A stretch of 64,000 nucleotides of DNA from Nereocystis luetkeana (taxonomy: Eukaryota; Sar; Phaeophyceae; Laminariales; Laminariaceae): contig JARUPZ010000013.1 of assembly GCA_031213475.1 (NCBI GenBank), positions 4,878,739 through 4,942,738 on the forward strand. The letters are read 5' to 3'. Of the stretch, positions 1,561 through 60,892 are shown one piece after another. The number at the start of each line of letters is the position of its first letter. The first letter of the stretch is position 1. Under the pieces are notes generated by a model, which did no database searches, was not told the DNA's origin, and was given only the letters and a program-made list of their open reading frames with translations. A program made the position numbers and the translations under genes.

Positions 1561-2601
1561 AAGTGCCGGCTGTCGCGATAGAAGTAGTGCCGGTGTTGTT
1601 GGCTGGCGCATACGTATATACCGGCACTATAGAGGGGCGCCACTGCTGAACCGTAGCACGTTTTGGCGAAAACATTTATGGCTGGCTAGGCTCCTTTACT
1701 CAAGGGCTGCTACGGCACTTGACATCGTCTGGCATGAAACAATGCAATCGCGCTGCCCCTAAATTATCATTATTTTTTTTCCCATCCGAAATGTACCAGG
1801 TATCGCATATACACGTTCGGTTCCAACTTGAATTGCATACCTCTCCTAAGACCGCAGAAGTGGTTTCTCTTTGCCCACTCTGAACCAAGCGAATCTCGTT
1901 TTAGGACCGTTTGGATTGAATAATAATGTAAATATAGTTCTTGAAATTATAGACGAGAGTGCTATTTTTTGCATGCCTAGCAAGTGTGATTACTCGTTGG
2001 GTTGTCTCCTTCGTATTTAGTCCAAGGTCAGTTCTGGGTGAGGTGAATAGCTCGTGATTGAGGAGCCTCACGAAATTCTCTCAGAAAAGTCTCGGAAAAT
2101 GGCGACGCTGCCCCTACAGCGGCGCGCATAAAAAACACCTGTGCGCCAACCACAGCGCCGGCGAGAAACAAAACACAACGTCAGCAAATCAAATCGAAAA
2201 CGCACCATCAGCGAGCCTAAACGCAGCATCAGAAACCCAAGGCAAAAACACACAGGATCAGCCAACTAATACACAAGCATCAGCCGAAAAACAAACATAG
2301 CAACAACACCCAATGAAAACACAGCACCCGCCAGAAACAAGCACAAGCACCAGCCAATGAAAACATAGCATGGGCCATCCATAAAAAAAACACAGTGTCA
2401 GTAAAACAAAACGCCGCATCAGCGACGACAAAAATCAAAAGAACAAACAAACAAGCAAACAAACAAAAAAAATAAACAACGTAAGGTCGACGAAAATGAA
2501 ACTCCTTTCGTCACCCAAGTTACCCAAAAAAACAAAACAGCGCGTCAGCGGGGATCCAAAACCCCGACAGAGAACGAAAAAAACACCAAATCCTCCCGCA
2601 C
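1561..2601. other. Spacer downstream of FabI exon B
   Basis: On the minus strand this lies 3' of the FabI exon at 2602-2667, so it should be intron. It holds one TACCAGGTA motif (1794-1802) and, at 2160-2470, an A/C-rich stretch with repeated AAACACAGC words. I could not find the next FabI exon here. It may be to the left of the window. Confidence 0.4.
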
Positions 2602-2667
2602 CTTTAGAAACCCTTGCCGCATCGCCTCCGTAGGGGCGTGGGCAACCGAGTGAAGAACGATGTCGAT
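2602..2667 (-). CDS. fabI: Enoyl-ACP reductase (FabI) internal exon B
   Basis: A 22-codon exon read on the minus strand encodes IDIVLHSVAHAP followed by TEAMRQGFLK. This matches the segment of NADH-dependent enoyl-ACP reductases just before the active-site region (consensus near LDFLVHSIAFAP, then a PFLETSR-like stretch). It ends in a clear donor, AAAG|GTGCGG. The acceptor is less certain because the upstream frame stays open through GGGGTGGGTTCACGGAAG and lacks a pyrimidine tract; I placed it at GGAAG|ATCGAC, which keeps phase 0. It follows the N-terminal exon at 16321-16466 in the right order and strand. About 40-45 residues of the family normally separate the two exons, and that piece was not located. 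The NAD-binding catalytic Tyr/Lys exon is not in view. Confidence 0.7.
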
Positions 2668-3961
2668 CTTCCGTGAACCCACCCCCTCCCCCGGCCCCAC
2701 CTCCGCTCCCCCCCTAGACCCCACCCCTACCCCTGCCCCCCCGCCCGACCCCGGTTCCCACCTCGCTCCTTCTCCTACCCCTCTTCCCGCTTGCCCGCTA
2801 CCGGTTCTCCCCGCTGGGTCCACGCCAGCAGCTGCGGCAGCGGCAGCGGCATCGACAGCGGTCGTTGCGGCAGGAGCGGCAGTTGTCGCGTTTACCGGTG
2901 ACAGGCTGCACAGCCCTCTGTCCTGGAGCATCCGCCAGAGCGCAGCGATTTCGTCCTCCTGCGCCGATTTTGATGCGGTGCAAACCGGGTGCGTGTGAAG
3001 TAGTGTTTTCGCGGCGTTTTGGCCCAGCTACGGGGAAAAAAAAACGATAATCTGGTAGTCCATACGATAAGGCTGACTTCTTCTTGTGCGGATCAGATGT
3101 GTATTCGGTTTTTATTTTTGGCCTATCTGACGATGAAAAAATATCTGTTTTAGGCCGATCGATTTACCCAGGAAATCAGCCACACAGCTTTTCTCGGAAT
3201 GGGTCCAGAGTCTTTTCGAAAGGTACCCAGCTCAAGAAACCGTTTCTCCACAGGCGTAGTTCTAGGTTTTGCCCACTACTATGCAGAATCCGTCCACAAA
3301 CAATCCCAGTTTTTTTTTCCTGATTTTCGAGCTGCTTGAGATTTTTCGGGCTAGATTTCGAATACGCACGTGGTCGGGTACAACTCGAACTGCGCCGATG
3401 GAGAAGCGGGTTCTTCAGTCCGGCATCTCTCGGAGGGTAGAAGGGCCGATGCCGAGAAGAAGCGTAAGGCCGGGCCCCGTCGCTTGGCGGGCGAAAAAAT
3501 ATCTGCGATTCTGGTGAAAGGGCCAGATCGGATCGAAAACAAAAACGCATGACAAATAGAGCTATTTCACTCCTCGTTACATACAGCAGATGTCCACGGA
3601 GTTGCCTGAGGTGGCCGGGGTCAGGGTCAGCGTTAGGGTGTTTCGTTTTTCAAGTATATTTCGCAAAAAACTTCGGATATATACGGGGCAAAGTGCATAC
3701 AGCCCTCGCGCGCTTCGAGGGGGTGCGCCCGGGCACGTGGTTATGCGGCGGAATTATGAGAACCTGCGGCTCGGCTTCGTGCCCAGGTGGTACTCGGGCG
3801 TTTCGCCGAGGTGGGTTTCAGAGGGGGTTGCAAATACGGTAGTGCCATTGATCTGGAGGCGTTTCAAGGGGCGTTTTAAGGTGCTGGGTGGACTTCCTAC
3901 CGCAAACTTGCTTGTACGTACGAGTATGTACCTTACACTGCTGTGCTGGTATTGTTGTTGT
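2668..3961. other. FabI intron, part 1
   Basis: The first 170 bp are C-rich on the plus strand (CCCCAC-type repeats), then a GCAGCGGCAGCG triplet run at 2828-2880. The rest has ordinary composition. Open frames exist on both strands (for example 3590-4072) but carry no recognisable domain and are interrupted by a dispersed repeat. Confidence 0.4.
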
Positions 3962-4312
3962 TGCTGTTCTCACATTAACTCTCTGACGAAGGAGTCCGTG
4001 GTCACACAAAGGTGCTGGAGCCCTCGGAAGATCCGAAAAATCACAAAAAAAAAACGAAATTCGGCTGCCTAAAAATACACGAGACAAAGAAAGCGCACTC
4101 AAGATAAAACCAATGTGCAAACTCAACTAACATGGCCGCGGGTATATCCTCTCAACTATAACATAACAGAGTATCCCCGTTCCCACCACTAACCAAGTAG
4201 TGGCTGCTGACTACAGCGGCTGCTGTCTGGAGTGCTGCCTGCACCGTACGAAACGCACGGTAGTCGTGAACACGAAAGAGGAACACATCTGCCTGCTATC
4301 TGGGTGGTATCC
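3962..4312 (+). repeat. Dispersed duplication D1, copy 1
   Basis: About 350 bp starting TTGCTGTTCTCACATTAAC and ending in ATCTGCCTGCTATCTGG recur in the same orientation near 54812-55165, roughly 90% alike with small indels. No protein domain is recognisable in either copy, so I regard it as a transposable-element fragment or old segmental duplication. Confidence 0.85.
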
Positions 4313-4489
4313 AATCATGGCCGGGAATAGTATCGAAAATACGTGGAATTTATTTTTACTCAGCTCCAGACGAAAGTGTTCATGTGACATGGGTTGTAAT
4401 GTTCGGTGCCCCATAATGGTGTCTAAGGCGTGGATTTTTAATATGCAGTGCCAGATAGTAGTGGTGTTTATATTGTAAAAAGCGGTATG

Positions 4490-4830
4490 GTCAACCCGGC
4501 ACCAGTGCATGTGGTACAGATACATGCGGTACAAGTGCGTGTGGTGCGTTTGAATATCGTACTATTAAAAGGCGCTGCTACACCAGCGCGTGTTGCACGA
4601 GTACATGGGGTACACATGTACACATACGTGTGGCACAAGTACCACGTCGTACAAATACATGTTATATCAGTACATGTGGTACACGCACATGTGGTACACG
4701 CAAAGGGGGTACAAGTACACGTGGTACATGTACATATAATATCATGGTACAAGTACAAGTGGCCCTAGCACTTGTGGACTAAGCGCATACCATGGGCACG
4801 AGCACATGTGGTACAGGTGCATATGGTCTA
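4490..4830. repeat. GTACATGTGGTACA degenerate minisatellite
   Basis: Irregular 12-15 bp units built from GTGGTACA, GTACATG and GTACAAGTAC fill this stretch. Open frames across it (Val/His/Gln-rich on plus, Cys/Thr-rich on minus) are products of the repeat. Confidence 0.85.
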
Positions 4831-4935
4831 ACTACCACACCAGATATATCTCTTGCGTGCCAGGAAATGTGTTAGATCCCAAGGGAGGCGGATTCCACTC
4901 CGCAGACACGCACTAAAAACATCAACGCGCCGCGC

Positions 4936-4978
4936 GGCCGGGCGGGCGGGCGGGCGGGCGGGCGCGCGGGCGGGGGGG
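4936..4978. repeat. (GGGC)n microsatellite
   Basis: About eight GGGC units grade into GCGCGGGC and a G run. Confidence 0.9.
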
Positions 4979-5610: not shown

Positions 5611-7600
5611 GGGCATACCATGTCATTGTCTCGCAGGTGCCTCACCGTAAAACCTCGGGTACACACCACGCGATAAGACCATTCCCCTTGTGCGACCGCA
5701 AGGTTCCCCACCCCACACAATATGATCTAACTCGACCGCCAGCTACGGTAACCGCAGCAAGAGCAACAACAACAGCAACAACGCGGCACCGTGGTTGTTT
5801 AGCTCCCGCAGTGATAGGCGCGGTTTACAGCGTCGTGGGCGACACAGGAAACGAGGAAAGGGCTGGAGCCAGCGGCTCGTGAAAGACGGTGCATAAAAAA
5901 AAGGTTCGTGCAACAAAAGGGGGAGTGAAAAGTCATTTGAAAAAAAAAATAGTGTAAAACGGTGTACATACACTGGTGTACGTGGAAACACGAAACGCTT
6001 CTCGGGTGCTATGACTATCGTACCTGGTACCTGACTGGTACGATCTCCATGCTTCGACCGTATCTCTACATGGTTGAATAGTCGCACGGGTGTTTTTTTT
6101 CTCTACATAAATCGTTGCGGAAAAAGAAAATGAAAGAGACGGGCAACAACGAGAACAAAGCGAGCGTGGTTGGAAGCTCTTCGACATGCAGCACGTACAG
6201 ACCGGTTCAACCTGAAAAGTAGCATGCGACTGCAGCCATGCATGATATCGAGTACATCCCCTCCCCCTCCCTCCTCCCCCCCCGTGTCCAATGTTGACGC
6301 AGTTACATTTTTGTGTTTTGGGGTCAGACAGACCCTAAAGTTTGCAAACGTGTTTAATGAGCTCCTACCAAACTGTGTCGTGATGGCGTTTGCTTTTGTT
6401 TTCGTCGGAGATGTAGTGATTGGGTTATATTTGTAGATAGTTGGGCCTCCCCTGGAACCCCAAACGTTCGGCGAAAAACAATACACGAAGAAAAATACAC
6501 ACACGTACGCATTCAGAATATTTTCAGCAATGGCTCATAGAATATATTTCGGCAAGCGTATTCAAATTTTTTATGTTTTTTTTGTTTTCGAAAAACTGTG
6601 TGGGTGTTTGGGACTTTTTGTGCAAGGAAAGCGCGCCAGCTAGGATACAACTCACGGGCAACGCCTCGTCACTACTCAGTTTCAGAGTATATATTATATT
6701 GGCCCCCTACCCAGTCAACTTTTTTTCTAATATTTGCAAACGTGTTAAGAGAAACGTTTTTTTTTCGAGTTGTACACGACGCCGACAGCGACGCCGACTC
6801 ATTTCAGGATCCCAAACAAACAAAACGATACAACTTTGTTTGGCTGGCCAGTTAAGCCCCTGTATCATACCCGGTACCTGGTCCGTAGCAGGCGGGGTTA
6901 GGAGGGGGAAAAAAACAGAAACATAGTGAATTAGTAGCCAACACCAGTACTATGGTATACAAGTGCTGTCAGTGACGTAGGGGTGGGACATTTGGCGAGG
7001 AGTGTGTTACACGAGGGTTTGCCAAGAGACGAAGTTGTGAATAGGAGCCTTCACGAAGGAAGAGTGAGATATTTATTGGTGCCGAGCGACAGAAGAGAGA
7101 CTACTAACAGTATTGATGTCTCGTACGTACGTATTACATTCGATTCAAGTCGGAATGGAAGATGTACAATACATTGTCGAAGCCAAAAGGAAAAAAAACA
7201 CACACACACCAGGAAGAAAAGGACGTTGTGCCCGCAGTTTCCAAAATTTGGGGGCCTCTTGGTAAGTTTCAGGAGAGATAACAGGGAAACCTTCCACGAG
7301 ATTTTCTGAAAACACATGACGTATCAAAACAAATGTAGCTGCGATTGAAGCGCGTGCGGTTACGGCCAATACAACCCGACCACGCCATGTTTCCAGCATT
7401 TTTAGCCATAAAGTTTGGCCTAGTTGACGTCTTCGAAATCGGTTAAAAAGCCCATATAGGGGCCGGGTGTCGACGGGCAGAACAGAACAGTTAAACGTCA
7501 AGAATATACACGGGCGACCACGACCGCATGGACGACTACACCAGAGACCAGTGCAGCAGGAGAACTAAAGCACCGAAAGAGCCATAATAGTCAAGTGGAG
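5611..7600. other. FabI intron, part 2
   Basis: No exon was recognised. It contains an ACAACAACAGCAAC triplet run (5760-5790), a short family A tail at 6229-6290 ending in a CCCCTCCC tract, one TACCTGGTA motif (6021-6029), and several T-rich patches around 6570 and 6720-6760. Open frames here (for example 6441-6926) show no known motif. Confidence 0.4.
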
Positions 7601-8830: not shown

Positions 8831-8939
8831 TATTACGGGGGACCATAGTAAATAGGACCTGTGGTACACACAAAAACCCATATATTTACCTATTTATACC
8901 AACACTATTTGGTCCTATTTACTATGGCCCCCCGTAATA
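8831..8939. mobile_element. M1 foldback MITE, copy a
   Basis: A 109-bp element whose ends are inverted copies of TATTACGGGGGACCATAG, followed inside by TAAATAGGACC. It has no coding capacity. Similar copies are at 20085, 21971, 22967, 28754 and 51478, with degraded ones at 27246, 41109 and 53285. A TA (or TTA/TAA) target duplication fits the borders but is hidden by the palindrome. Confidence 0.9.
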
Positions 8940-9789
8940 GTTGAGTTGAACAACGTATCGAAAGTTTCGATAAATATTGAAATATCGAGCAAAACGTTAT
9001 TCATAAATATTGTTGTGTTGGATATGAAAGCGAAAGTTTCGATATATAAGCCGAAAGTTGGCACAGAAGGGAGGTATACTTGGACTTGGTGCATGGGTTT
9101 CCTTTTGTTTCCGAGGTTTTCTTCTTTCGGGAAAGTTATGAGTGATCAATGTTGAAGATCATGCTGCACCTTGTCGGAAGGCAAGCGAAATAATAATATA
9201 TACCAGGTATATCAAAATATCAAACACAATGCTATTAATGATAGTAGTGTTGGATATCGCATCGATTTTGTCGGTACATCGTATCGGACGTGTTTTTCCG
9301 TCCACCCCCTGGCATCCCCGTGTTTTGCTGACATTGAACGAAACTTTGCCGGTATCATCAAGTATGGAAATCGTATCGATTGTTTCATCAATGTTGTATC
9401 GTAGTCCATGTTCTCTGGGAACAGACAAATGGCTCAAACTTGAAAAAAAAAACAGTCAAAAACTTGCCCATTTTTGCACGTTGTCGCCCATTTTTTAGCC
9501 CAACAATGTACCATAACCCCTCTCACGGGATCGAAACTTCCTGTTGCGCAGGTTTATCGCACACGTCAGCTCAGTCCCTGTACTCGGTGTTCAAACGATC
9601 CACGAGGAAACCAGCAACATTTTGGTAAAGTCCGTTTTTTTTCCATGTAGTTACGCATATCGGGGATGTAGCCACAATGGTACCATGCAGCAGCAGGCGC
9701 GTGAAAGGAAATATTTATATCGACTTCGAGACTTTTTGTGTTGCTGGCTCGCAGCTCCGAGTTCACACGAAAACAGCGTTTGTGAGTCG
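8940..9789. other. FabI intron, part 3
   Basis: No gene recognised. From 8950 to 9390 TATCGA/TCGATA words and AAAGTTTCGATA recur as in 7.7-8.0 kb, and one TACCAGGTA lies at 9201-9209. Confidence 0.4.
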
Positions 9790-13799: not shown

Positions 13800-15190
13800 A
13801 TATATTCTTCTTAGAAAGCATGACGGGATAATCCGAAGACATACCATATCGTAGCTCGTGCGTTGGGTGCTCGGGGCTTTGGTTTTTGGGTGCTTGGTTG
13901 TCGGATGGAAGGGTGCTGAGTGCTTAGTGCTTGATTGTCGGACGGGAGGGATGATGGGGACACGGGAATAAGGCGCAACGAACCGTCGTTAGTCTTCTTA
14001 GACCTATGCAAAACTCAGAAATGTCGCGATATTTGGGGTTTACAGCCAAATTATGTGCCTATCGAGTTTTATACCAACGGCGGTACATGCAAATATATGC
14101 CGATGTTTTCGCGATACGTGGTCCGCAACACACAAATATATGCTTGGGGTGTTTTTACCCCAAGCATATATTTGTGTTCTCTTTTCGTGTTGGTAGAGCC
14201 GAATCTGGCTGACAAAATTGGAAAGAGCCTGTGCCCTCTACTCGGTCATCCGATCATCACCTTGCCAGCAAGGACAACAACAGCGGCAGTGGCCGCCACG
14301 ACTTTTGGTTGAATGAGTACGGCAGTCGGGTGCTCCCTTGGTCGGGCAGGGGCGGATGCCTGGGATGCCCGGGTTCAGCGGCACCAGCATATCATCCAGT
14401 ACTCCGGCTGGGCGTCTTTTTGCCGGCGCTGCCCCAAACCCACATGTCCCAAACACACGACACGCCCCACCCTATCCGGGGACAACAACCGGATAGCGCC
14501 AACCAGATCTTTGGTTTTTGGCGGACACGCCTCAGCACGAGCACGAGACGCGTCCGCGCTGCGGCCTCGTCTATGCCCATAGCCAAGCGGTGTACGCGGG
14601 CGCTGTAGCCTGTCGAGCTACCTAGAGAAGCAGCAGCAGCAGCTATATGTCCTCCAGCCCATCCCATGCTGTAAAGCAGTGTATCCTTCGTGTTTGTTGG
14701 ACTTGCTGACGACTACCTGGTATTCATTTCACCCATGTTTTACCTCACGTTCTACTGGCAAAGAACCAGATATCGAGTTTTATATCGAGGGATTTGCGTT
14801 TACGAAAATCGCGATATTGAATTCGGCGCAAAGAGTCGAAATATCACCCTCTCCTGAGTTTTATATATGTCTCTTGTGAGGTGCTTTCCTCCTTCTTGCC
14901 CTCGTATCTACTGCATCTCTCCTATCTACAAGTATCCCGAGACCGCTACAAAGGTATGATACGTACTATGTGTGTTCACCAGTACTGGCGCCGTTTGCCT
15001 CCTTGGGCTGTGCCTTATGCTGGTGTCCCCGTCATCCCTCCCGTCCGACAACCAAGCAACGAGCACCCACTATCCTCCTGTTCGACAACCAAGCCCCCCT
15101 CAACCAAACACCGAGCAAACAACGCACGACCTATGGCGTGATACAAGGTACCAGCATGTCTTTCCGATTATCCCGTCAAATTTTCTAATA
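13800..15190. mobile_element. Possible non-autonomous element with long inverted ends
   Basis: The block 13800-13970 (GACGGGATAATC, then CGTGCGTTGGGTGCTCGG, then TTGTCGGACGGGAGGGATGA) recurs inverted at about 14998-15190. The 1.03 kb between them has no transposase-like frame. It contains a CAGTGGCCGCC-rich stretch at 14280-14660 and a strong hairpin. It could equally be an inverted duplication not made by transposition. Confidence 0.5.
14126..14177. repeat. Strong hairpin
   Basis: CACAAATATATGCTTGGGGT and its exact reverse complement are separated by five or six bases (GTTTTT). It is part of the 13.8-15.2 kb element. A stem this good in DNA could impede replication or polymerases, but no RNA gene is implied. 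Confidence 0.85.
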
Positions 15191-15444: not shown

Positions 15445-15816
15445 GAACGTACTCGTTACGACTTCTGGGTTCCTCCAGCCCTCGTTCTACAGCAGAAAAA
15501 AAATACTTGGCTACAGCACAAGAAACCGAAAATTCAAGCGCCTGGAACCACATTTACAACCTTCAGCGACAAGGTTCGGTATGAAGGAGGACACGAAAAG
15601 TGTTGTCGCTTTGGCACACTCACGGGAGTGCACCAAGGAGCTCATATCCGGTCTGCCAAAATTTTGCTCGCAAGGAACGGTCGAGCTAGAGCAGAAAAAC
15701 GAATTGTCCTCAGAAAAAAAAACGGCGGCAGACGTGGTTCCATTGGCTTTGTTGTCGGGACTTTTGTTTGTGTTTTGTGGGCAGTGCAACACAGGTGGTA
15801 AACATGTACCAGGTAC
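15445..15816 (+). repeat. Single-arm copy of palindromic element D3
   Basis: From CGTACTCGTTACGACTTCTG to CACAGGTGGTAAACATG this matches the reverse complement of 12955-13315 with about 85-90% identity by eye. It has no second arm. A TACCAGGTA motif sits at its right edge (15807-15815). Confidence 0.85.
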
Positions 15817-16020
15817 AGGGTATGGAACTTGTGGTGAGGTCTATATCTCGTACCACACACACCACACACAATGACAGAGCTTTTGTCTTTGCAGGCTGGA
15901 AGAACCGACACGAACACTGGGCGTGCTGGATGTCGACGGGTAGAAAGGACACACACCATCCGGGGCAGAAAAAACAAATACCAGGTAACGAAATAGTCTC
16001 AGGAGAGCAACAATCATAAA

Positions 16021-16165: not shown

Positions 16166-16320
16166 AGTTTAGACTTTGTTATTCCATGATGGATAAGCAT
16201 GTACATGGACAAATAATACTGGCAGTACCTGGTACGCTGCAAACATGAAGCCAATCCCAGGTACTAATAGTTTATAGCCCTCCCTGCCCCCCCCCTTGGT
16301 GTGGTGACAAAACAACCCAC

Positions 16321-16466: not shown

Positions 16467-18036
16467 CTACAGCAGAACGTCTTTAGTATATACGCACCGT
16501 TTTATTTGAATATTATTGATAAAACAGTCCTTACTTTACCGGACAGAGTGGCAACGTGCAGGGGCGGGGGAACGCAAAAATGTTGCGACAGCTCTGACTT
16601 GTCTGAGCATGCCCTTCTGCGATGGCTGTAGTGTAGCAGATGTAGAAAAAAGCACGCGAGAAGGCAGAGACGTTCACGGCCGAGAGTCTCGGGGGCTGCT
16701 GGGTACGAGGTACGAGGCACGAGGCGCGGAGGAGGAGGTGGCCGCCGATCGAAGAGCGGAGAGCGGAGGTTTTATTTCACCGCAGCTGTCGATGTAACCG
16801 TTCGGGGTTGTACCGACCAATCTGTGCTAGACACAAAAATTCTGGCGTATAAATTCCGCCGCGCTTGCGTGGTTGACTTGATCAGCGAGCAGCTTTTTTA
16901 GCCCCATGAGTTCATCCTCGCTGTGACAGAAGAGTCAAAAGCATCGTAGGTAGCCACCGACGGGAGCCGTCGTCTAGGAGAGGAGAAGGCAGAGTTACCG
17001 GCAGCAGCACCAAGCCGCCGTGTCGCCCCGGTTCCTGCACTCGTTTTGCTTTTGCTTGCCTGACGCAGCAATCAACTTTCTCCTTCATCAGAGCAAGGCG
17101 AGGAATTAGGAGCCTTGAGACTACCACTCCTAGTCACTGAGACCCTGCGCGCTTGGCTTTGGACACTCGTGCACAGGAGCTTGGACCGTCGGCGCGATAC
17201 GGACTCCAGTCGTAGCCTCTTCTGGCTGTTGAGCTGGGGCTTGTTGCGCCAGCGACCGCTTCGGACCGAAGGAGCCTGGGGTGAGCGGATCACCCTGAAA
17301 AGCTTCGATGTGTGAAATATTTGGCAAGTTTGCGTGGAGACAGAGGCACATCCATCTCCTGCAAGGTGTCGGTCGAGAGTCCAGAGCCGCCTGATAGCTG
17401 CAGCAGCAGCAGCAGTAATACCTGGTATCAACCAAAGACCGAGATGTTGTGTGAAGAGGGCAGTCGGTCCCTGCACGAGCAGTTGCACACTCCAGACAAG
17501 TACATCTCTATGGCACGACGTTGCGAGTAGCAAGCTTTCCATACATAACATGCTTGTTTTCAGGCGTTGCAGATTGATGTGCCTCGACTCGGCACGTGTC
17601 TTGCTTGCATGACACACACGACCGGTACCAGATGAGAATTAAATGAATACCACCACCACCATAACCGATAATATAATCTATGTTCGGATTTTAACGTTGA
17701 TATAAGTCGGGATTATATTACTGGCCAGTTTGGTACAACATGAATGCGGCGTCGTCTCGTAGGTGGTCGGTATTGTTTTTTTCCGCCCTTTTTTTTCTTT
17801 TTTCTTCCGTTTTTCTCGTATTTCAAAGCATCCTGCGTCTGGCTGGGGCTGCTGGCCTGTAGTTGGTAGGCGAGACCACTGCTGATGTGCTTGCCCCCTG
17901 CCCATGTACAGCTGGTATATCTAGCGTGTGAGATGGAATGTGGGGAAATCTGTGTGGTTGTGGAGCGAGATTCATGGAAGCAGGCATGGCATGGCAACTA
18001 CTGAAACTGCTCTGCTGCCAAACGTCCTTACTCGCA
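16467..18036. other. Region 5' of FabI exon A
   Basis: On the minus strand this should contain the FabI promoter and presequence exon(s). Open frames are plentiful (for example 17072-17617 minus) but none shows a signal peptide followed by a convincing transit peptide, so I assign nothing. GCAGCAGCAGCAG at 17400-17416 runs into a TACCTGGTA motif (17419-17427). 17770-17830 is T-rich. Confidence 0.35.
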
Positions 18037-18039: not shown

Positions 18040-18245
18040 GGGTGTGTCTTAACCCTCCAAGAGAGCATGGGAACGAGCGGAACGGAACGAGGCTGCTTAA
18101 CCCTCCCTAGATACCTGGTATACTGTTTTTCTCGGGCTGCACTGAATCTATTCGTTTCCCACAACCAATCAACACCAATTCATCCGGCAAATGATATTCC
18201 ATTCGGCTCGTTCCAATGCTCTCTGGGGGGGGTCAAGACACACCC
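18040..18245. mobile_element. Harbinger-like element, short copy with 7-bp insertion
   Basis: A 206-bp internally deleted relative of 411-839 with the same GGGTGTGTCTT inverted ends and flanking TCA (18037-18039, 18246-18248). Where the long copy reads CTAGATATACTG this copy reads CTAGATACCTGGTATACTG, so 7 bp (CCTGGTA) are inserted exactly at a TA dinucleotide. Confidence 0.8.
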
Positions 18246-19624: not shown

Positions 19625-19690
19625 TTCGACAAAAACAGCTGTTGTTGTCTACCAGGTATGAAAACAGCTGTTGTTGTTGTCTACCAGGTA
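19625..19690. repeat. Local tandem duplication containing TACCAGGTA twice
   Basis: AAAACAGCTGTTGTTGTCTACCAGGTA-type units of about 32 bp occur twice, so the two motif copies at 19650 and 19682 are one insertion later duplicated. Confidence 0.85.
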
Positions 19691-20084
19691 TTTTATTAAT
19701 GTGTATGCATGGAAAGGTCTCGGGAAGGGTCTCGACCAGATGTTTACAACTTATGATGGCCACCTTTTTCGTCGCTCTGTGTACCCCCCCCCCCCCCCCC
19801 TCTTGTTTTGGGAAAATCACCTCGGAAATGCATTGGGGGGGGTGGTATCTTAACACCCGTGTGATACGGCATCCCTCCACCGGTAGGATGGAGAATCAGC
19901 ACGGATACTGCTGTGTGTTGAAAATCGACGGGTATCATACATCGAAATAACGAAACAACGGTATTCTGTGAAGATCTACGAATCTTGCGAGCCCTATCTG
20001 TTCATTTTCCGTCAACAAGTTATGATACGATATTGATTCTGCACAAGTAGTAAGTGTGGTCTCCCCGGCCGTTTATTTCGCAAA
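19691..20084. other. Unassigned spacer
   Basis: Contains a run of about 18 C at 19784-19800. No gene recognised. Confidence 0.35.
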
Positions 20085-20198
20085 CTACGGGGGACCATAG
20101 TAAACAGGACCTACGGTAAACACAAGAACCTACATGTTTCCCCATGTTTACTAACAATATTTTGTCCTATTTACTACCAGGTATGGCCCCCCGTGATA
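20085..20198. mobile_element. M1 foldback MITE, copy b, with 7-bp insertion
   Basis: Same structure as 8831-8939. In the right arm TATTTACTATGGCCCC of other copies is replaced by TATTTACTACCAGGTATGGC, so CCAGGTA has been inserted at the TA of ACTATGG. Confidence 0.9.
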
Positions 20199-20499: not shown

Positions 20500-20895
20500 C
20501 TACACTATTATGTTTGCCCTGCTTCTCGCGCTCCATCCCTGTTGTATCTCAGACCCGGGGCCACATAGCGGGCACTCCCCCCCCCCTCCCCGTTGCGGTG
20601 CGTGCGTGCGCGTATCTCGCATCGAACTGCTGTGCGTACACAGCATTAACCCTTTTAGGGCCGCAGTCTCGTTTTGGGGACAAATCACTTAAAATTTGAC
20701 TGGTTTGTTCCCAAAACGGGACTGCAGTCCTAAGAGAATTGAATCAGTATATAGGCGCTTTCTGCAAGCCAATCATGTCCGCTGCGAAGAAAAAGCCCGC
20801 TCGGTGGGTCTCGAACTCGCGAAGCCGGCCTTGCTTACAGCAGTATCTGGGAAAGTTACGAAGTTAAACCGCTACGTAGGCAACCGGGGGCTTTG
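20500..20895 (-). mobile_element. tRNA-derived SINE interrupted by an M2 MITE
   Basis: Read on the minus strand: a tRNA-like head (about 20885 to 20805) with A-box-like GTAGCGGTTTAAC and B-box GAGTTCGAGACCC. Then a leader, then the M2 element at 20648-20738. Then the SINE body resumes with CAGTTCGATGCGAG, GCTATGTGGCCCCGGG and GGAGCGCGAGAAG, ending in an A-rich AAAAAAAGG segment. The head contains TACTGCTGTA between its two boxes, lengthening that spacing by about 8 bp. Confidence 0.7.
20648..20738. mobile_element. M2 foldback MITE nested in SINE
   Basis: AACCCTTTTAGGGCCGCAG and its near-inverse flank a short centre with AAATCACTTAAAATTTG. The SINE flanks join on either side, so this insertion is younger than the SINE copy. 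Confidence 0.85.
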
Positions 20896-22119: not shown

Positions 22120-22212
22120 ACAACGGTGGGATTCGAGCTCGGGTACCAATGCCGCAGTAGGTAGCAGGTGAAGCTAACCACTACCAGGTATGATTTACTA
22201 CCGGGGCGACCG
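22120..22212 (-). mobile_element. SINE tRNA-like head with inserted TACCTGGTA
   Basis: Minus-strand GCCGGTCGCCCCGGTAGT, an A-box region GTGGTTAGC and a B-box GAGCTCGAATCCC match the head of the SINE at 57241. ATACCTGGTA splits the A-box region at a TA. An M1 MITE lies directly 3' of the head. Confidence 0.6.
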
Positions 22213-22966: not shown

Positions 22967-23076
22967 TATTACGGGGGACCATAGCTAATGGGACCTATGG
23001 CACACATAAAAATCCTATATATTTGACCATTTTTACTAGCAATATTTGGTTCTATTAACTATGGCCCCCCGTAATA
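22967..23076. mobile_element. M1 foldback MITE, copy d
   Basis: Intact 110-bp copy with TATTACGGGGGACCATAG ends. Confidence 0.9.
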
Positions 23077-23172: not shown

Positions 23173-23794
23173 AATAGTACGTTGCCCCCCAAACGGGAGT
23201 GTGGTCCTACGTAAAAGGACTCGGTCCAAGATACAGAGAAAGGCTGGATTGCTTGGCACACCTGTCGGGCCAAACCCAGAAACCAAAAACTCTCTCTGCA
23301 TTGTTGTGCTTCCTTCGGCAACTGCTGCCAGTATTGCAGTCGTACTGCTGTACATCAAAGATAGCCCTAGCCTATCCACACCAACAGCAAGACAGCAGCT
23401 GCGGTGTCGTGCCGTTCGCTCGTGGCGCAGGGGGCAGATAAGAGGAGAAAGAGCACTGCTGCGCTTGTCTCGCATGCTTGCGCATGCATGTTGTTGTGCC
23501 TCCACCTACGTACCGTTATAGACATATACCTGGTATAAATAATGTACGACCAAGGAGAAGACAGGGATTGGCGAGAAGTTTTTCGTCACGCCGGACTCAG
23601 CATCGGAAACTTGAACGTCAAATTCGCGAGGGTTTTTCAATACTTCGAGCGCTCTCCTCGAGGATAGACTTCAACTCCCCCCCTCTTCGCTTTTGGTTGC
23701 ATTCCTAACCGTGAACGCGTACGTGGGCCGAGAGAGACAAGCGAGAAGTAGGCGCGATCTTGGCTTCTGGGCGGCAGTCTCCGGGATTTTCTTT
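23173..23794. other. Unassigned spacer
   Basis: No gene recognised. One TACCTGGTA at 23527-23535. Confidence 0.3.
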
Positions 23795-24460
23795 GAATCT
23801 TGATATGGAGAGGTCGTGCAAATAATCGTGCTACGTATTACTGCCAGAAAAAATGACATTATTTAGCTTCAAAGGGAGTGTATTGAGGAAACAAGCTGCA
23901 CAAGCGGTTGCAGCAATAACCGCAGCCCGGGCTCAAAGCGCTGTTGTACGAGCAAGAAGAGCGCATACGAGCATGTATACGAGCAGAAGCACATACGAGC
24001 ACGAGCACGAGTACGTACTATCGAGCTTCTCTTCAATCTTATTGTATGGAGAGGCCGTGCAAATGAACGTGGAATGACTCCAAAAAAATGCCATTTTTTC
24101 TTGAAAAAAAAATACCTGGTACCTTGGTATGCTCTTTTCGAGCACATAGGTTGAGTACACGAGGGAACAAGCTGCACACAGCCGTTACAGTAGCTGCATC
24201 CCGGGCTCGAGCGCTGTTGTGCAAGTACGAGCACATCCGAGTATGTGTGCGAGTACAAGCACATACGAGTTCGTACGAGTACGTGTACGCGCCCTCTGTT
24301 TGTCAGTATTTGGCACATTTTGAGCACAAAAATGAGTTTGAGACGAAACAAGCTGCACACAGCAGTTACAGCAGTTGCTGCAGCCCCGCCTCGATCTCTG
24401 TTGTACGAGCAAGAGCACATACCAGTATCTGTACGAGTAAAAGCACATACCAGGTACAAA
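23795..24460. repeat. Tandem array, units of about 180-270 bp
   Basis: Three units each carry AACAAGCTGCACA, then a GCAGCC(CG)GGCTC block, then CGCTGTTGTACGAGCAAG-like sequence and a GAGTACGAGCACATACGAG minisatellite (starts near 23884, 24161 and 24340). Further degraded pieces appear at 25055-25140 and 25395-25460. The first two units are also preceded by matching TATGGAGAGG(C/T)CGTGCAAAT segments. Confidence 0.8.
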
Positions 24461-27245: not shown

Positions 27246-27386
27246 TGCTATTAATATTACTGGGGACTATAGTACTATAGTCCCCCGTAGCATACAAACG
27301 ACCATAGTAAATAGGACCAAGTATTGTTATTAATAGTAAAATAAATATGTACAGTAGTTTTTTCGTGTAGCGTAGGTCCCTCATTT
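27246..27386. mobile_element. Rearranged M1 MITE copies
   Basis: 27246-27295 is a mini-hairpin in which the two M1 termini are joined with no interior. 27299-27386 is a second M1 copy lacking one terminus. Both carry TATTAATA (27249, 27328) where intact M1 copies have TA, and the second also has TACAGTA near 27353 where other copies have a plain TA. Confidence 0.65.
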
Positions 27387-27487: not shown

Positions 27488-28753
27488 TTACTATCCCCCA
27501 CCAGAACAATATTCAGTAAAAAATTCCTTGTATTTAAAGTGGTGTAGCGAGCCCACGGAAACATCTCGGCGAGACCTGTCAAAATTCAACGATTTCGTGG
27601 TTTTTGTGCTCCCCCCTTTGGTGTGGAGAAACCCGGCTCCGAAATTCTGAGGACATTCAACAATATGGGAGTAAGGGATCTTTAGGTTGGTAGGCTGTTC
27701 GGGTGTTTTGGTTCCTGTTGGGATCAAGGTACGGGTGAAGACCCAACCCAACCCCGCAGCCGAAACGGGCCAAAACTCGCCATGAACGCGGCTGCGCCGC
27801 GTGTGCATCGAAACAGGAAATTTCTCAGTTGCGGTCGACGATTCCGAAGTGCAGACCACGCTACACATCTTTCGAGTCGAAATCATCCGTAAATATCCCT
27901 TCTCCCAGATTGCTGAACCTACTCGAGGGAAACTCTTCCGAAAGGGTATGTTCCCTTTTTCACCCGTATTGGTTATACGGGTACATACGGATGCCTTGTG
28001 TCGGGCTAATCCAGACTAAAACAAAATCGCCTCTGCTCGAGACGTCGAACCCTTGTCAAGGCCATCATTGTAGAGGTGCACACGTGGGAAGACTGAGCAA
28101 ACTACAGGTAGCATAAACAGCTTATTGTTAGTATTATTAGTACAGCGGACCACACAGAGTATACTTAGCGGGTATCAGGTACCGGGGATGCGACAACAGC
28201 AGTAGTTGGCGATGCGTTTGGGGGGTTCAGGTTCTTCAACTCACTCGCAAATAAATACATTGGAGCTCACAAAACCTGTGTAATGAACATAATTCCTGTA
28301 GCTTTCTTTTTTTTGCGGGTCCTTCGTGTGACGTCATGCGTCTCCTGAACAAATATTATTAGTGGCGCTTGTGAAAGTTTGGTGTTTTTTCGAACATACC
28401 AGGTATCTCTCTTACAAGCTCTTGTGGGCGGAACGCTATTTTGAGTAGTCGACACAGGAAGCCCGGCCGAACACATTCACCTTGGTTGGGGTCCGGGCGC
28501 GATCCGTACCTTCTGGAGCGCGTGGCAAGCCCCGTGAACTTTTTATTTCGGCTGGGGTGGGTGAGACGATTTCCCTGGTTTCAGTACGAGAGGCCTCTTA
28601 TTTTGTACGTGCATACCGGTAATACCACAGGGATGTTTTAGAAAAGTTCGTATTGAAGGCCGCGCAGGGTATTATCCACCCCCCCCATGGAGAGCAGAAC
28701 TCACGTATTAATAGTAGGAGAATGTGAAATGTGCAAGGAGGAACGAGATGTGC
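27488..28753. other. Unassigned spacer
   Basis: No gene recognised. Frames at 27491-27886 (minus) and 27801-28116 (plus) lack any known motif. One TACCAGGTA at 28397. Confidence 0.35.
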
Positions 28754-28868
28754 TATTACGGGGGACCATAGTTAATAGGACCTATGGTATACATAAAAAC
28801 CTATATATTTGACCATTTTTACTAACAACATTTGGTCCTATTAACTATGGTCCCCCGTAATATTAATA
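28754..28868. mobile_element. M1 foldback MITE, copy f
   Basis: Intact 110-bp element. Its right end CCCCCGTAA runs into TATTAATAGG, where other copies read CGTAATAG, so six extra bases (TTAATA) are present at the terminal TA. Confidence 0.85.
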
Positions 28869-32654: not shown

Positions 32655-32902
32655 AACTCATTGAACCTGCCATCTATGTGCAAGTCCGCCTCACAATCGT
32701 TTCTTAGTAGGATGCACCTCGCCCTTCACGCGACTCGCCGGACACGTCGCGGCGCTTCGCGCTTGGTGCAAGCAATGTCTGCCTGGTCGGTGAAAACCCG
32801 ACGTGTTCGGTCCCAGCATTGTAGAGATGCGAGGGTCAATTGCCATACGACTACGGCCATACCAGGTACATAATACCGTGTACCCCCCCCCCCCCCCCCC
32901 CC
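32655..32902 (+). mobile_element. Family A repeat with 7-bp insertion and poly-C tail
   Basis: Full-length copy from CTCATTGAACCTGCCATC to a run of about 20 C. Other copies read CGGCCATGCATGATATCGAG; this one reads CGGCCATACCAGGTACATAA, so CCAGGTA is inserted at a TA (32870-32878). It lies just upstream of the desaturase gene. Confidence 0.8.
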
Positions 32903-44767: not shown

Positions 44768-45949
44768 GGCTCGTGACAGAAAACACAGGGAGGGGGTTCT
44801 GGTGGGGGTTAGCGGGGGAGGGGGTTGGGGGGGGGAGGGGGGGGGGGTGTGCTCATGTACTCACGTCGTACGTGGCCGTAGTCGTATGCCATAGACCCCC
44901 GCACCCCTATTATGCCGGGGCCAAGCACGTCAGGTTTTCACCAACCAGGTAGGCATTGTTAGCACCAAGCGTGGGAGGGGGGGGGGGGGGGGGTTCGGAA
45001 TGGGTTGGATGGACGGGGGTATGTATGATGGGGTTTTGCTTTTCTCGTTGGAATGAGCAAGTGGGAGGAGCATTTGGCTGAGTCCGCAAAAAAAAAACGC
45101 ACCCCGCCGCTTGGGCCACGGACCATCGTGAGCGGGTCGATGGGGATGAAGTCGGGAGGAAGGCGGGGGATGTTTGAAACCTCTCCTCTCATGTCGCCGA
45201 TGTTTCAAAACACCGCACATACTACATAATATGCTAAGCACATGTTTTCTCCTTCCCCTCCCCTCCCCCCCCCCCCCCCCCCCCACCCCCCCCCTTCAAA
45301 CGACCGCTTGTGTCCCTCTTGTCTCCCGATGTCATGCTTTTGCAAGAGACCCACGTTTCGACCCCTTGACTGGCCGCCCCCTACACTAACACTGGTATAG
45401 GAGGGGGCGCAATAGGCCTTGACGGTTTCCTAACATACCATTTTTGCCCCTCGACACTTTATTTTTGTCTCTCTCTCTCTCGCTCCATTGTGCTGCCACC
45501 CCCTCCACCCCGTTGCCGCCGCCGCCTCTGAATTTTACCCCGTGCCACGACCGGAAAACAAACCATGAGCACGAAACAATGACTAAGATCAATGTTTTTG
45601 CCCCCCCCCCCCCCCCTCCCTCCCTCCCCTTTGCTTGGACCCCCCCCCCCCCCCCCCCCCCTCCTCCTTGCTGCTGCTTCTGCTGCTGTTATCGCTGCTG
45701 TTGCTTCTAATGCTGTTGTGTGTTGCTCTTTTACCGTTGCTGATGTTTTTGCCTCTGCTGTTGCGTGCTGGATAACTTTTTTTCAATTCCCTCCCTCAAA
45801 TATGTTTTCCCGTTTTTTGTTTGTTCTGTTTTATTACGTCTCTAGCTCTCATTCCTCGTTGTGGTCGGCGTACAAGTCGTACCTTAAGCACCTCATGCTC
45901 TGCAGTGATATGGGAGCTGATCCATAACAGGAAATGCCGTTGAAGAGTG
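44768..45949. other. 3' flank of desaturase
   Basis: G tracts at 44828-44848 and 44977-44992 with a minus-strand family A fragment (44848-44975), C runs at 45266-45283, 45601-45616 and 45640-45660, and a CTGCTGTTGCT run at 45668-45760. No gene recognised. Confidence 0.45.
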
Positions 45950-50860: not shown

Positions 50861-51477
50861 GGGCAGCACTTTTGTCAGAGAGGAAATAACGTGAGAAGTT
50901 TTACACGAAGCATATCATACGTAGATGGGAGGGTAAAACCGCTTTAGAATGGCACCCTACACCAGTTTTTGAAAGGGGCAAACCACTTGATGTCACCAAT
51001 AGCATGATACCTGGTATCATTTTGGCAGCAGTGCAAGGCGATAAGCCGGGAAGTAAAACGGCAATGAAAATAACACGGGGAAGTTGAAACTTGAACTTGA
51101 GGAGACCGCACTTTCTGGGGTGTTTTTTCACTTGATGGTCGCAGCGAAATACCCCCGAGCTCCAACGGGGAGTTCAATCTCGCCTTTTTCCTCTTTGTGG
51201 TAGCGGCCGATATTTCCTGCCGCTGTTCTCACGTAGAGTACATACCAGGTATGTGATGGCTATTGGTTTGCTGTTTCTGCTTTGCGAACTGGGGTTATCT
51301 TGCTGGCTAAAGCTTTACCTGTGTAGCAGCACGCCCTTTTTTTTGTCGAGTTTTGATTGGTTCGCCGACGATGCAAGGTTTTCGTCGTTCGCTGGTTCTA
51401 TGTATATTATGCATGACGGCTAGTCTTCGGAGTGTTTGTCGGGGCGAGGGCGAGACAGTTTGTACACATACATATAC
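50861..51477. other. Unassigned spacer
   Basis: No gene recognised. Two CCWGG-type motifs (51008-51016, 51243-51251). Confidence 0.3.
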
Positions 51478-51586
51478 TATTACGGGGGGCCATAGTTAAC
51501 AGGGCCAAATATTGTTAGTAAAAATGGTTGAATATATAGGTGTTTATGTATACCATAGGTCCTGTTAACTACGGTCCCCCGTAATA
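51478..51586. mobile_element. M1 foldback MITE, copy h
   Basis: Intact 109-bp copy between ACATACA and AGTACC. Confidence 0.9.
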
Positions 51587-53178: not shown

Positions 53179-53284
53179 ATTGGCTCTAGAACAGTTAGAG
53201 ACGGGTTTGGAACACGAAGACGGGGATCGTTTCTAGCTACTATATACATATACCTGGTACCTGATACGTGATACAAATATTGCA

Positions 53285-53378: not shown

Positions 53379-54152
53379 GTCAAATGTGATGATCGGCTCG
53401 TCCCGGCATGTTTTAAGTTGGAGATGATTTTTAAGTGAAATTGAGGGTCGGCTTTTGCTTTGTAATTGGCTCTTGGTATTAATAATACCATGTTCAAGTT
53501 CAAGATGGGGATCGGCGCTTGCTTGCAAAGTTCAAGCTTGAAGTGTAGGATCGGATCTAGAGATGGAGCTGAGCAATCAGACCCGAAGCCGTATGCTGCA
53601 CAAGTGCTTGACGAAAACAGACCTCAACAATAGTGCAGCCCCCCCCAATGAATTAATAACTCTCTATCTAGTGACCTAAACTAATACTACAGTGGGAACA
53701 TGAAATACCAGGTAGAACAGTAGACAATGAAAAAAACAGCCGCCAAGCCTGTTACATGAATGTCAGGATGAAAATTAGTATTATAGCTGTTTTTGTTGTT
53801 GTACGCTCGTACCCAAAGAGAACCATATATTCATATATCTACTCCTAAACGGCGCTTTCGCCGTCCAGCGCGAGCGCGCATCAGCGGCCCGAGCACGTAC
53901 TTACGTTGTTGTACCTGGTATGGAGCAGACCTACGGGTTACACTTGATAATAAAATTGTCATTTTTTGTGTGTTTGCCATCCAACAATGAGCATCACATC
54001 ACACGCATGTACACGAGCTTCAACGTTGGTCACATATAAACGTTCCCAGAAATGAGAAGACCCAAAAAAAGGAGAAACAAAAATACAAATGCCAAGCTTA
54101 TTAGAGGATGCTCGGCTGATGTTGGACAATTTATACCTTTACTATTAATAGT
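53379..54152. other. Unassigned spacer
   Basis: No gene recognised. TACCWGGTA at 53706 and 53912, TATTAATA at 53477 and 54143. Confidence 0.3.
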
Positions 54153-57240: not shown

Positions 57241-57589
57241 CGGTCGCCCCGGTGGTTCAAGTGGTTAACCTCGAATTCTACTTGTTTGAGTCCTGGGTTC
57301 GAGCCCCAGGAGGGTCGGACTTTGACTTTATTTGCAAAAATAAAAAAAAAGGGATTCAATTGTTGAGAGCGCCTTGCAGCGTGGGTAGGCACAATTCGAT
57401 GCGAGTCGACGAGGGAAGAAAAGGCTGAAATCTTCTCGCGATAAAAAATGAAGGCACGTACCGTAGCGGGAAGGGGGGAGAAGAGCCTGCTATGTGACCC
57501 CGGATCTGAGTTACGAGTTGGAAGGAGAGAGAGAAGAAGATGTGCGAAGATAATGAATGGGATGAAAAACAAAAAAAAAAAAAAAAAAA
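57241..57589 (+). mobile_element. tRNA-derived SINE, full-length reference copy
   Basis: The head GTCGCCCCGGTGGTTCAAG has an A-box (TGGTTCAAGTGG) and, 44 bp on, a canonical pol III B-box (GGTTCGAGCCC). After an A-rich link (57336-57350) comes a body of about 215 bp shared almost identically with 26603-26818, and the element ends in about 20 A. The anticodon arm does not fold properly, so it is a tRNA relic, not a tRNA gene. Length about 349 bp. Confidence 0.85.
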
Positions 57590-57889
57590 TTTATTCGGGG
57601 GGGAAAAAACGGTTTGAATTTAGAGTGTTGATGCATGTGGCAAGCATGTTGTGGTTGTCTATATATATTGATCCATCATGTATCCAACGAGATGTTTTTT
57701 GTTTACTTCGTGCGCCCGGCGCTACGGGCCTGTGAGCCCCCTCCCCTCCCACTCCACGATCTGTGTTCGCCTCAGCCCGAGGTTACGTGCAGGGATGGAC
57801 ACGAGGGGGCCGCCTGGTAGTCCTTCTGCCCCTGGCATCTATTAAAAACCAGGTATGTACGCACAACTGAACTGCTGTAATAGTATACC
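57590..57889. other. Unassigned spacer
   Basis: No gene recognised. Confidence 0.3.
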
Positions 57890-57932
57890 TCTCCTCCTCC
57901 TCCTCCTCCTCCTCCTCCTCCTCCTCCTCCTC
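57890..57932. repeat. (CTC)n microsatellite
   Basis: Fourteen CTC units. Confidence 0.95.
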
Positions 57933-58261
57933 TGCACCAGCAGGCAGAAGGACCGAAAATTCTGCCGGACTGCCCTTTTCTCTCTTTTCGCGCGTACGGA
58001 ACGCACGTAGGAATACGAGTGCAGTAGAACAGCTTCACAACAAGAGAGGAGGGGATGCTCTTTTTTTTTGTCGAGAGAGAACGGGGCGGAACGGAGAGGG
58101 CGTAAGATAATATGTACTTCTACCACACCAATCAGCAGTAGTACCAGGTACCAGTATACTGTAGTACTGGTTTACTCTCGTACGAAAGAGGATATGTGTG
58201 TGTATGTTTTCCTTGGGTAGTACAACCCTCGCTCATTCGTACTGGTACCAGGTTTACAACA

Positions 58262-58345
58262 AGTAAGCGTACACCTGTGGTAGATGAGATGCCAGGCAGA
58301 GCAAAAATTGCATGTGGTAGATGAGATGCCAGACAGAGCAAAAAG
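58262..58345. repeat. Tandem duplication, 40-bp unit
   Basis: TGTGGTAGATGAGATGCCAG followed by (A/G)CAGAGCAAAAA occurs twice in succession. Confidence 0.85.
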
Positions 58346-60000
58346 CAGGCGTTCCCTGTGTCCCTGTGCGCAAGCCGGGGCGAAAAGGGGGATCAATCAA
58401 ACACGTAACCGTAGTATCACTCGCTCCGGACGGAAACGTAAGCACCGTTCGTTATACCTGGTATTTTCGTACAACAGCAGAAGGAACAACGCTTTTAATT
58501 TTACCTGTCCCTGATTCTACAGTACGTGCAAGAAGAGTGCAGTCGTTTGTTCGCTTCTGTATCTCCATCTGCCCGTCCGCCCGTCCGTCCTACGCACTTA
58601 CGCGCATCAGATATCCATCTAGAAAAACGCTCACCAACATTGATGCTGCGCCACGCGCAAAACAAAGTAAAAATCGCGGACGACCGAGAGAGGAGAGTAA
58701 AGTTGTTGTGTCATACCTCACGAAGGCGTACTTTAAATTAGCTGATGGGACCCGTTCCCGGGTCCCCGCGGAGTGGCAACGTGCTTGAGTCCTACTGTTG
58801 TAGGAGGTGCGACGGTTTATACGCTCCGCCTATAATATTGAAATGTCATCGGCCGCATACATGCATGCATGTAACACTCTGGGTGTGCATATAGAGATCG
58901 CTTATACATGAAATATGAACGCCGATCGGCCCTTATATTTACGCCCAAGTGGCATACATACATGTATTATGTGAAGTCTCCAGCTTCAGAGTTTGTCTTC
59001 CTCGTGCAGACTGCTGTATGCGGACTGTACTTTCTGCGTGGGACATCCATAACCCGTACGTACGTAGGTCGTACGCGCGATCGAAATATCACAAAGAGCT
59101 TGCAAAAGATGGGTTTCGACCGAATAAATCCTCAACAAGCCATCACAGCTGTTATTTTTCAAGGTTATAAATATGCACCAGGTATGTATGTACAAGGGCT
59201 GCGCTTCGCGAGCGACAGATCGCCGCCCGCTAGGCTCGCTGAAGGAAGAACAAAACACGTGAAACTAAGGTACATGATTTAGATTTGGCGCAAAGCGCGA
59301 CTTGACTGCGCCAAGAGCTCCATCGTACAGAGAAAAAATCTCTAACTCTACACGCGTATACCGTGTTGTATACATACTGTACGTGCGTGATGTTGAATGT
59401 AATATCTACCTGTAGTACCTACCTGGTGGTATGTTTTATTATTGAGAACGGAAATCAAGGGAAATTACTCGTAGATTGTTGATGGCACACTTTTATTTGT
59501 GGGTTGATATGGTCGCATTCCCAAAGGAGTGAAACCCCTTCAGCCCTTCTGGAGCATGAAGAGAAAAACAAAAAGGCCACACTGAGTCTCGTCGTAACTT
59601 GGATCGCTTTGCCGGGGATGGACCGATATATCGAGGGCACATGCTACTCGTTGCTCCGAGAGCTTTATCGTGGGCTGAGTGTTTTACGGGTGGCAAGCCG
59701 CACCAACGTGAATGAACCGGTGAAAAAAAGCGAGAGAGAGCCTGCCAAACCGCTGTAAAACAAATAAATCGACTTTTTTTCCCCCCCCGATGTTTTTCTT
59801 GTTTTTCCGAGAAAAAAAAGTGTGGCAGGATGAGCAAGCACGCAAAGAAACCACAGAAGGCGAAGAAAGCAAAGACCGCACCCACTCGTAGAAGCGACGA
59901 TTGTTTATTTCAGGCTCTCCCGAGAGCGAAGCGGGCCCTTGTAAATTATTAAGTGAAAGAAAGACAAGAACCTAGGTAGATAAGTCTATGTATTAACAGC
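58346..60000. other. Unassigned spacer
   Basis: No gene recognised. Frames at 58321-58788, 58908-59282 and 59493-59885 (minus) have no motif that I can place. Confidence 0.35.
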
Positions 60001-60085
60001 ATGTATGTATGTATGCATGTATGTATGTATGTATGTATGTATGTATGTATGCATGTATGTATGTATGTATGTATGTATGTATGCG
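60001..60085. repeat. (ATGT)n microsatellite
   Basis: About twenty ATGT units with three ATGC interruptions. Confidence 0.95.
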
Positions 60086-60169
60086 ATGCCCCGTGTCCGT
60101 GATAAGAGGCATGCAGTTGAATCCGCCCAAATCCATGAGATCACGGGCTAGCTTTCAGGAAAACGAGCT

Positions 60170-60356
60170 ACTACTTCTTATCGGAGAGCGTTTTTTCCAT
60201 AATTTCCAAAGTTTGGAAATAATTGGAGACATGTATCAATATACGGAGGCGCTCTGACACACTATCATTCTTATCGCAGAGCGTTTTCTCCATAATTTCC
60301 AAAGTTTGATATAATTGGAGATATGTATCAATATACGGAGGCGTTCTGTCACTATT
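60170..60356. repeat. Tandem duplication, about 97-bp unit
   Basis: CTTATCG(G/C)AGAGCGTTTT through CAATATACGGAGGCG(C/T)TCTG occurs twice with about 92% identity. Confidence 0.85.
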
Positions 60357-60498
60357 AGTGATTCTCCAGAACCAAAAATATCAACTTCATCAACATTCCA
60401 ATATTTGGGGGGAAAAAAACAGGAACATATGGTAGATTGAAAAACTGCGCGAAAAAAATGTCGAAAAATTGGGGGAAAAAAGGTCTTCGATAAGAATG

Positions 60499-60590
60499 AC
60501 CCTCAGGACCGCAATAATCCCGTTTGGGGACAAATTACTCGGAACTTGGCCGGTTTGTCCCCAAAACGGGACTGCCGTTCTAAAAGGGTT
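60499..60590. mobile_element. M2 MITE
   Basis: CCTCAGGACCGCAATAATCC on the left and ACTGCCGTTCTAAAAGGGTT on the right. The left arm reads GCAATAATCCC where other copies read GCAGTCCC. Confidence 0.8.
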
Positions 60591-60892
60591 GAGGGTAGTA
60601 TGGACCTAGGGGCCGACGACCGCTATGCAGGTACGTAGTGTTTCTGACTTTGCTCTGGTCACTCACACACGGTGCTTGGATAAGTTATCACTCTTTCATT
60701 AAGTGCTGGCTTGCTCGCCGGATACCGACTGAAGGAAGGGGCGAGACATTCATCAGCCAGGCAGGCGAGAACGCCCGCCAGATATGATGGGGGGACACTT
60801 GCTACAAATCACGACGCCGTAACAGGGGAGAGGGGCTACCATAACACATACCAGGTATTATGAGTACCTGTATCATTAATGTGAGAACACCA

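Follow-up and report, generated by a model that had tools for sequence, protein, structure and literature searches.

A 64,000-nucleotide stretch of the genome of the brown alga Nereocystis luetkeana (G000:C13:4878739-4942738, referred to as the window; assembly of 465,085,209 bases) contains 26 exact copies of the word TACCWGGTA (TACCAGGTA or TACCTGGTA). This word, hereafter the scar, probably arose by end joining after the departure of a cut-and-paste DNA transposon that targets TA and whose ends are CCAG(G)...(C)CTGG. The scar phenomenon itself is real and very large. Genome-wide, TACCWGGTA was found 182,395 times (0.39 per kb), whereas the reversed word, used as a control in the same assembly, was found 1,744 times, corresponding to a 105-fold excess, far above chance. 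In 100 dinucleotide shuffles of the window, the mean number of copies was 0.47 and the maximum was 3. These counts bear out a preliminary description of the window, which had put the number of copies at 26 and the chance expectation at about 0.5; 25 of the 26 starts that it listed were correct, the one given as 32870 being actually 32860. Further analyses relied on a sample of 315,559 bases comprising the window, 20 stretches of 10 kb (contigs C1 to C20) and the merged loci of a genome-wide word search. The merged loci (51,559 bases) were chosen because they bear scars, so that scar density is biased upward there, and the remaining 264,000 bases form the unbiased part of the sample. The whole sample contains 134 scars. 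In the unbiased part, CCWGG was by far the strongest word of the TA-N5-TA type, with 103 occurrences versus 2.4 expected from a second-order Markov model (runner-up, 23 versus 2.1), and about 0.7% of the TA sites were scarred (103 scars, 14,402 TA).

Comparison with paralogs revealed what had been added to the TA. The flanks of each of the 134 scars were joined by a single TA and searched against the sample, which returned a paralog spanning the site for 20 scars and none for 114. For 11 of the 20, paralogs with an undisturbed TA indicated the gain of exactly CCWGG plus TA. Empty-TA paralogs were found without occupied ones for 10 scars and together with occupied ones for 1; paralogs were occupied or of another form only for 3 and had only a dinucleotide other than TA for 1. 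The 5 remaining scars fell in none of these classes, and 2 of them together make up a single tandem double scar that is absent from its paralogs. The 20 scars are partly non-independent, since seven come from c1_12 repeats. Among the 120 paralog alignments, 58 had TA at the site, 39 another dinucleotide, 10 a scar, and 13 were gapped otherwise. Gain is a simpler reading of these alignments than loss, because single occupied copies stand among many TA copies, as for the scar L048_7056, located in the M1 miniature inverted-repeat transposable element (MITE), with 14 TA alignments versus 1 occupied, and for the scar c1_2_1501, with 7 versus 0. In the repeat family c1_9/c1_12, TACCAGGTA is present in four close copies, one of which adds CCGG plus TA at the second TA, and a more distant relative (L031) has no scar. 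An all-against-all catalogue of insertions and deletions was too coarse (4 ACCAGGT among 590 events), and its result was not used.

The preliminary description had derived the addition of CCWGG and a duplicated TA at a TA from three comparisons within the window. The first, between a Harbinger-like repeat reading GATATACTG at 711 and its copy reading GATACCTGGTATACTG at 18110, is as claimed: the scar TACCTGGTA (18112..18120) lies at the repeat edge, and the other copy has a plain TA (711-719). The second also stands, as the scar TACCAGGTA at 20175..20183 lies within an M1 copy (20083..20191, extent as in the repeat family) and TA was found in 13 paralog alignments and was missing from 1. In the third, involving family A, the scar TACCAGGTA is present (32860..32868) but TA is absent from this site in all 23 paralog alignments, of which 19 are ungapped with another dinucleotide and 4 are gapped. 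Six of seven other listed family copies read TG, and TA must therefore first have arisen in the scarred copy. With a fixed insert and empty-TA paralogs for 11 of 20 scars, the addition at TA is upheld, and the aligned repeat copies show the motif as gained rather than as ancestral and lost.

The Tc1/mariner element Sleeping Beauty leaves TA-CWG-TA. A report on this element assigns its footprints to 3-nucleotide overhangs (PMC7827188). By this rule, an element of structure TA-CCAGG...CCTGG-TA would leave a CCAGG or CCTGG scar. We infer the following overhang model, and a parent element that is now rare, very divergent or extinct. The element would duplicate TA on insertion (TA-CCAG(G)...(C)CTGG-TA), and its transposase would cut 4 or 5 nucleotides inside the element ends. 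The two overhangs would pair through their CC/GG bases around a central A.A or T.T mismatch, and repair of the mismatch towards either strand would yield CCAGG or CCTGG. The target would thus keep its TA and gain five bases and a second TA, i.e., 7 bp. Loss of the mismatch would generate CCGG, and other trimming CCAG or CCAGGG. Both TAs of the scar would stay targets, and scars would stack in 7-bp steps. The repaired 5-nucleotide overhang proposed in the preliminary description fits the CCAGG and CCTGG forms but is one option only, since a 4-nucleotide cut of ends CCAG/CTGG would produce an identical scar if the ends were joined with an overlap of 3 bases.

The flanks of the scars revealed a palindromic, AT-leaning target logo extending 7 bases on either side of the TA, with R at position -1 (81%; T, 5%), R at -6 (68%) and W at -7 (81%), mirrored on the other side. 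The logo was built from 231 flanks after the removal of 37 of 268 that resembled a neighbouring scar, and it survives this removal. The same logo surrounds the variants CCGG, CCAG and CCAGGG. Enrichment was observed for TACCGGTA (18 sites versus 5.2 expected), TACCAGTA/TACTGGTA (30 versus 11.3) and TACCAGGGTA (10 versus 0.94), and the scores of their flanks on the logo were reached by 28, 0 and 27, respectively, of 10,000 random sets of TA-N-TA sites. TACCATGGTA also fits the logo (8 of 10,000 random sets), with only 4 sites. Length variants with a common logo are as expected from imprecise repair. The word TACWGTA was considered as a scar of the same process and rejected despite its 2.3-fold enrichment, since its flanks lack the logo (9,953 of 10,000) and a clean TA is missing from most of its paralogs: 19 of its 119 sites have paralogs, 4 of these with any empty-TA alignment. 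The flanks of TACGTA did not fit the logo either (2,097 of 10,000 random sets reach their score). As a separate observation, TA-CWGCWG-TA (TACAGCAGTA/TACTGCTGTA) exceeds the Markov expectation about 40-fold in the 264 kb (28 versus 0.7), and its flanks lack the preference at -7 and -6 seen for CCWGG scars.

The identity of the central W was independent of its surroundings. No difference was seen between the left and right flanks of W-oriented scars (p 0.29-0.95 over 8 positions in 134 scars), as expected if an A.A or T.T mismatch is repaired at random towards either strand. Scars are also stacked in tandem. We counted 15,917 tandem pairs genome-wide (AA, 4,800; TT, 4,739; AT, 4,522; TA, 1,856), i.e., 8.7 per 100 scars, whereas the mean hit rate per TA in the 264 kb predicts about 1.4. 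Scars are therefore re-hit about six times more than by chance. The two W are alike in 60% of the pairs and unlike in 40%, and CCAGG-TA-CCTGG outnumbers CCTGG-TA-CCAGG 2.4-fold. A preference for A over T at position -3 of the target may explain this order bias at best in part, because a 2.4-fold pair bias exceeds the A/T preference in the logo (A, 0.37 against 0.27; T, 0.31 against 0.30). In the presence of GG at -2 and -1, the sample shows 15 A and 14 T at -3 (background, 695 A and 854 T).

The M1 MITE provided an internal control. Its ends are TA-TTACGGGGG...CCCCCGTAA-TA, and its length between the TAs is 105 bp in 4 of 8 copies measured (105-148 overall). Pattern matching, which omits copies with other ends, detected 33 M1 ends in the sample, of which 30 adjoin TA, 16 of these as C-TA. 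The word TATTAATA was found 93,112 times genome-wide versus 10,689 times for its reverse, and the flanks of intact M1 insertions score 1.20 on its logo versus -0.80 for TA in general (30 ends). Of the 79 TATTAATA sites in the sample, 11 have paralogs, 8 of these with an empty TA. TATTAATA is thus apparently the M1 excision scar, which could be formed by joining 3-nucleotide overhangs TTA/TAA with a 2-base overlap. There is a reservation, as TAC repeats score even higher on the TATTAATA logo. If the TA duplicated by M1 is placed further in, TATTAATA can alternatively be read as what precise excision leaves at a preferred target; its strong excess and the paralogs with an empty TA favour the scar reading. 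Like the CCWGG scars, the M1 words are TA-flanked and have paralogs with an empty TA, and they lie at sites of the type that intact M1 occupies. They differ in the scar (TTAA), in the flank logo (TAC-TA-GTA) and in that M1 elements are still present. In the window, M1 copies were identified by repeat family and inverted-repeat search at 8831..8939, 22967..23076, 28754..28862 (TA-TTACGGGGGACC...GGTCCCCCGTAA-TA) and 51478..51586, and putative M1-type excision scars TATTAATA at 27328..27335 (plain TA in 6 of 11 paralog alignments) and 28706..28713 (plain TA in its single paralog alignment).

The CCWGG scars share several features with Tc1/mariner footprints, including a TA target and its duplication, a palindromic target around the TA and, if the overhang model holds, terminal bases left as the scar and a central mismatch resolved either way. 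Mos1-type mariner ends begin with CCAGGT, which is only a lead. According to the corresponding reports, ZB (PMC7913693) and the pogo-like element Passer (PMC9976928) insert in palindromes centred on TA, and footprints are 2-4 bp for Tc1/mariner (PMC7913693) and 0-4 bp for Passer (PMC9976928). Insertion at TA in a palindrome and the formation of footprints thus also liken the scars to Passer, and the pogo-type DDE_1 was the only one of four transposase families sought to have matches in this genome. The scars differ from Passer in that its footprints are 0-4 bp and in that three DDE_1 genes read here lack terminal repeats, and from Tc1/mariner in that about 180,000 scars are present and neither the parent nor its transposase was found in the searches made.

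Several observations weigh against the departure of a transposon as the source of the scars. The main scar consists of 5 bases plus TA, not of the 2-4 bp reported for Tc1/mariner, and 4-base forms are minor. No family with CCAG(G) ends was found in the 315-kb sample, which could miss a family of fewer than about 1,000 copies, by four types of search: TA-bounded inverted repeats, repeat families sharply delimited by TA, scores on the target logo for 130 TACCWGG sites without a following TA, and pairwise comparison of 354 non-scar TACCWG sites. Scars are far more numerous than any parent that might have gone unnoticed in the sample. Pfam profile DDE_3 had no match in the genome (control positive in 3 of 14 genomes), and neither had Transposase_1 nor HTH_Tnp_Tc5, a weak negative as no control genome was positive; the profile search scores the best candidates only, exon by exon, so that zero matches are no proof of absence. 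DDE_1 had 28 matches, of which three loci (L051, L052 and L053) were picked for their open frames and read. These three lack terminal inverted repeats and look like host genes, domesticated or degenerate, none being a clear transposon. The 60% concordance of W in tandem pairs and their order bias are unexplained by simple independence. The logo has an AT lean and is not exclusive to scars, with TATATATA scoring as high as some variants; it is therefore a preference, not a signature. Finally, TACCSGGTA (TACCCGGTA/TACCGGGTA) is enriched (13 sites versus 3.1) yet lacks the logo (3,987 of 10,000), indicating that not every look-alike is a decayed scar. One-mismatch forms number 290 versus 134 expected, beside 268 exact words (both strands of the sample). 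If this whole excess were due to decay, mean divergence would be about 6% per base and scars would number about 290,000 with one-mismatch forms included, which are upper estimates because the excess includes TACCSGGTA, a word without the logo.

Locus L051 was rejected as the parent, as scars at 553 and 2209 flank its frame but the inward sequences differ beyond the scar. L051 and L052 have a related downstream frame in common. A triple array of the scar was not found in IMG/VR viral contigs, a collection unlikely to include this host and that may omit near relatives. In the available text of the literature on scars and footprints, no report of such scars turned up, and the matches listed for TACCAGGTA, TACCTGGTA, TACCWGGTA or CCWGGTA were unrelated. 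The excision footprint proposed in the preliminary description is well supported but indirect: the excess, the gain at TA, the fixed insert, the repair-type variants, the independence of W from the flanks and a second TA element with an apparent scar speak for it, but the CCAGG/CCTGG parent and the DDE transposase expected to accompany it were not found in these searches.

Among other explanations, we hold unlikely a one-step micro-insertion, in which an enzyme adds CCWGG and a duplicated TA at a TA and no large element was ever present. The uniformity of the insert and the failure to find a parent element or a fitting transposase would suit such a process, but length variants with the same logo and a free W are what overhang repair gives, and the M1 MITE of the same genome has an apparent matching scar. 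We know of no enzyme with this activity. Programmed excision of germline-limited, TA-bounded elements during development, with an assembly representing processed chromosomes only, would account for abundant scars and no parent in the sample. It is quite improbable, as scars were gained in single copies of repeat families and the excess of one-mismatch forms looks as if scars were inherited and decaying. Ciliate-type excision at TA, moreover, normally leaves a single TA. Selection or iteration of a palindrome, in which mutation or gene conversion would have multiplied a motif for binding or methylation (CCWGG, for instance) in the manner of the iterated palindromes of cyanobacteria, is hardly credible: the word is palindromic, dispersed and very abundant, but comparison with paralogs reveals a gain of exactly 7 bp rather than substitution, both TAs belong to the unit, and mutated forms accumulate. 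Replication slippage or tandem growth of a 7-bp unit has almost no likelihood as the main source, being refuted by single scars gained at TA; the 15,917 pairs contain at most 31,834 of the 182,395 scars, leaving at least 82% in no exact pair, and the pairs with unlike W, which copying does not give, make slippage alone insufficient. The 60% concordance leaves room for some slippage, which may add a minority of pairs.

The window scars, identified by exact word search, further include TACCAGGTA at 1794..1802, 9201..9209, 15807..15815, 15979..15987, 22182..22190, 24448..24456, 28397..28405, 51243..51251, 53706..53714, 58142..58150 and 60849..60857, and TACCTGGTA at 6021..6029, 14714..14722, 16226..16234, 17419..17427, 23527..23535, 24113..24121, 51008..51016, 53251..53259, 53912..53920 and 58455..58463. 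Two additional TACCAGGTA scars (19650..19658 and 19682..19690) lie in the first and second copies of a tandemly repeated 32-bp unit and were probably copied together. The window also contains a second MITE family, CCCTTTTAG...CTAAAAGGG (61423-61527, 20645-20742 and 31227-31324), often with TTAA at its ends, a site by which we presume it to be piggyBac-like. A fatty-acid desaturase gene is partly encoded at 36925-44891, spread over several kb, and only its last frame has a Pfam match; its apparent exons are separated by repeats and by long stretches of C or G. Elsewhere, TAACCC repeats at a locus near the start of contig C1 and a short GGGTTA run in L038 make a TTAGGG telomere likely in this genome.

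If scars do arise by excision, they alone have added over a megabase to the genome (182,395 copies of 7 bp) and marked about 0.7% of its TA sites. To our knowledge, this scale is far beyond what is usually ascribed to footprints. Possibly, though we have considerable doubt, they reveal a class of TA-targeting transposons that excise with a 4- to 5-nucleotide stagger, rarely rest in the genome and are known almost wholly by their scars or, more boldly, a transposase-like system that inserts 7 bp and carries no cargo. Each scar would document which target was chosen, how the cut was placed and how it was repaired, and the chemistry by which an unseen transposase cuts, as well as the rule by which it selects targets, would become inferable from the sequence by itself. 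Insertions of this length (7 bp) would cause frameshifts, and scars might serve as lineage markers where TA sites escape repeated hits.

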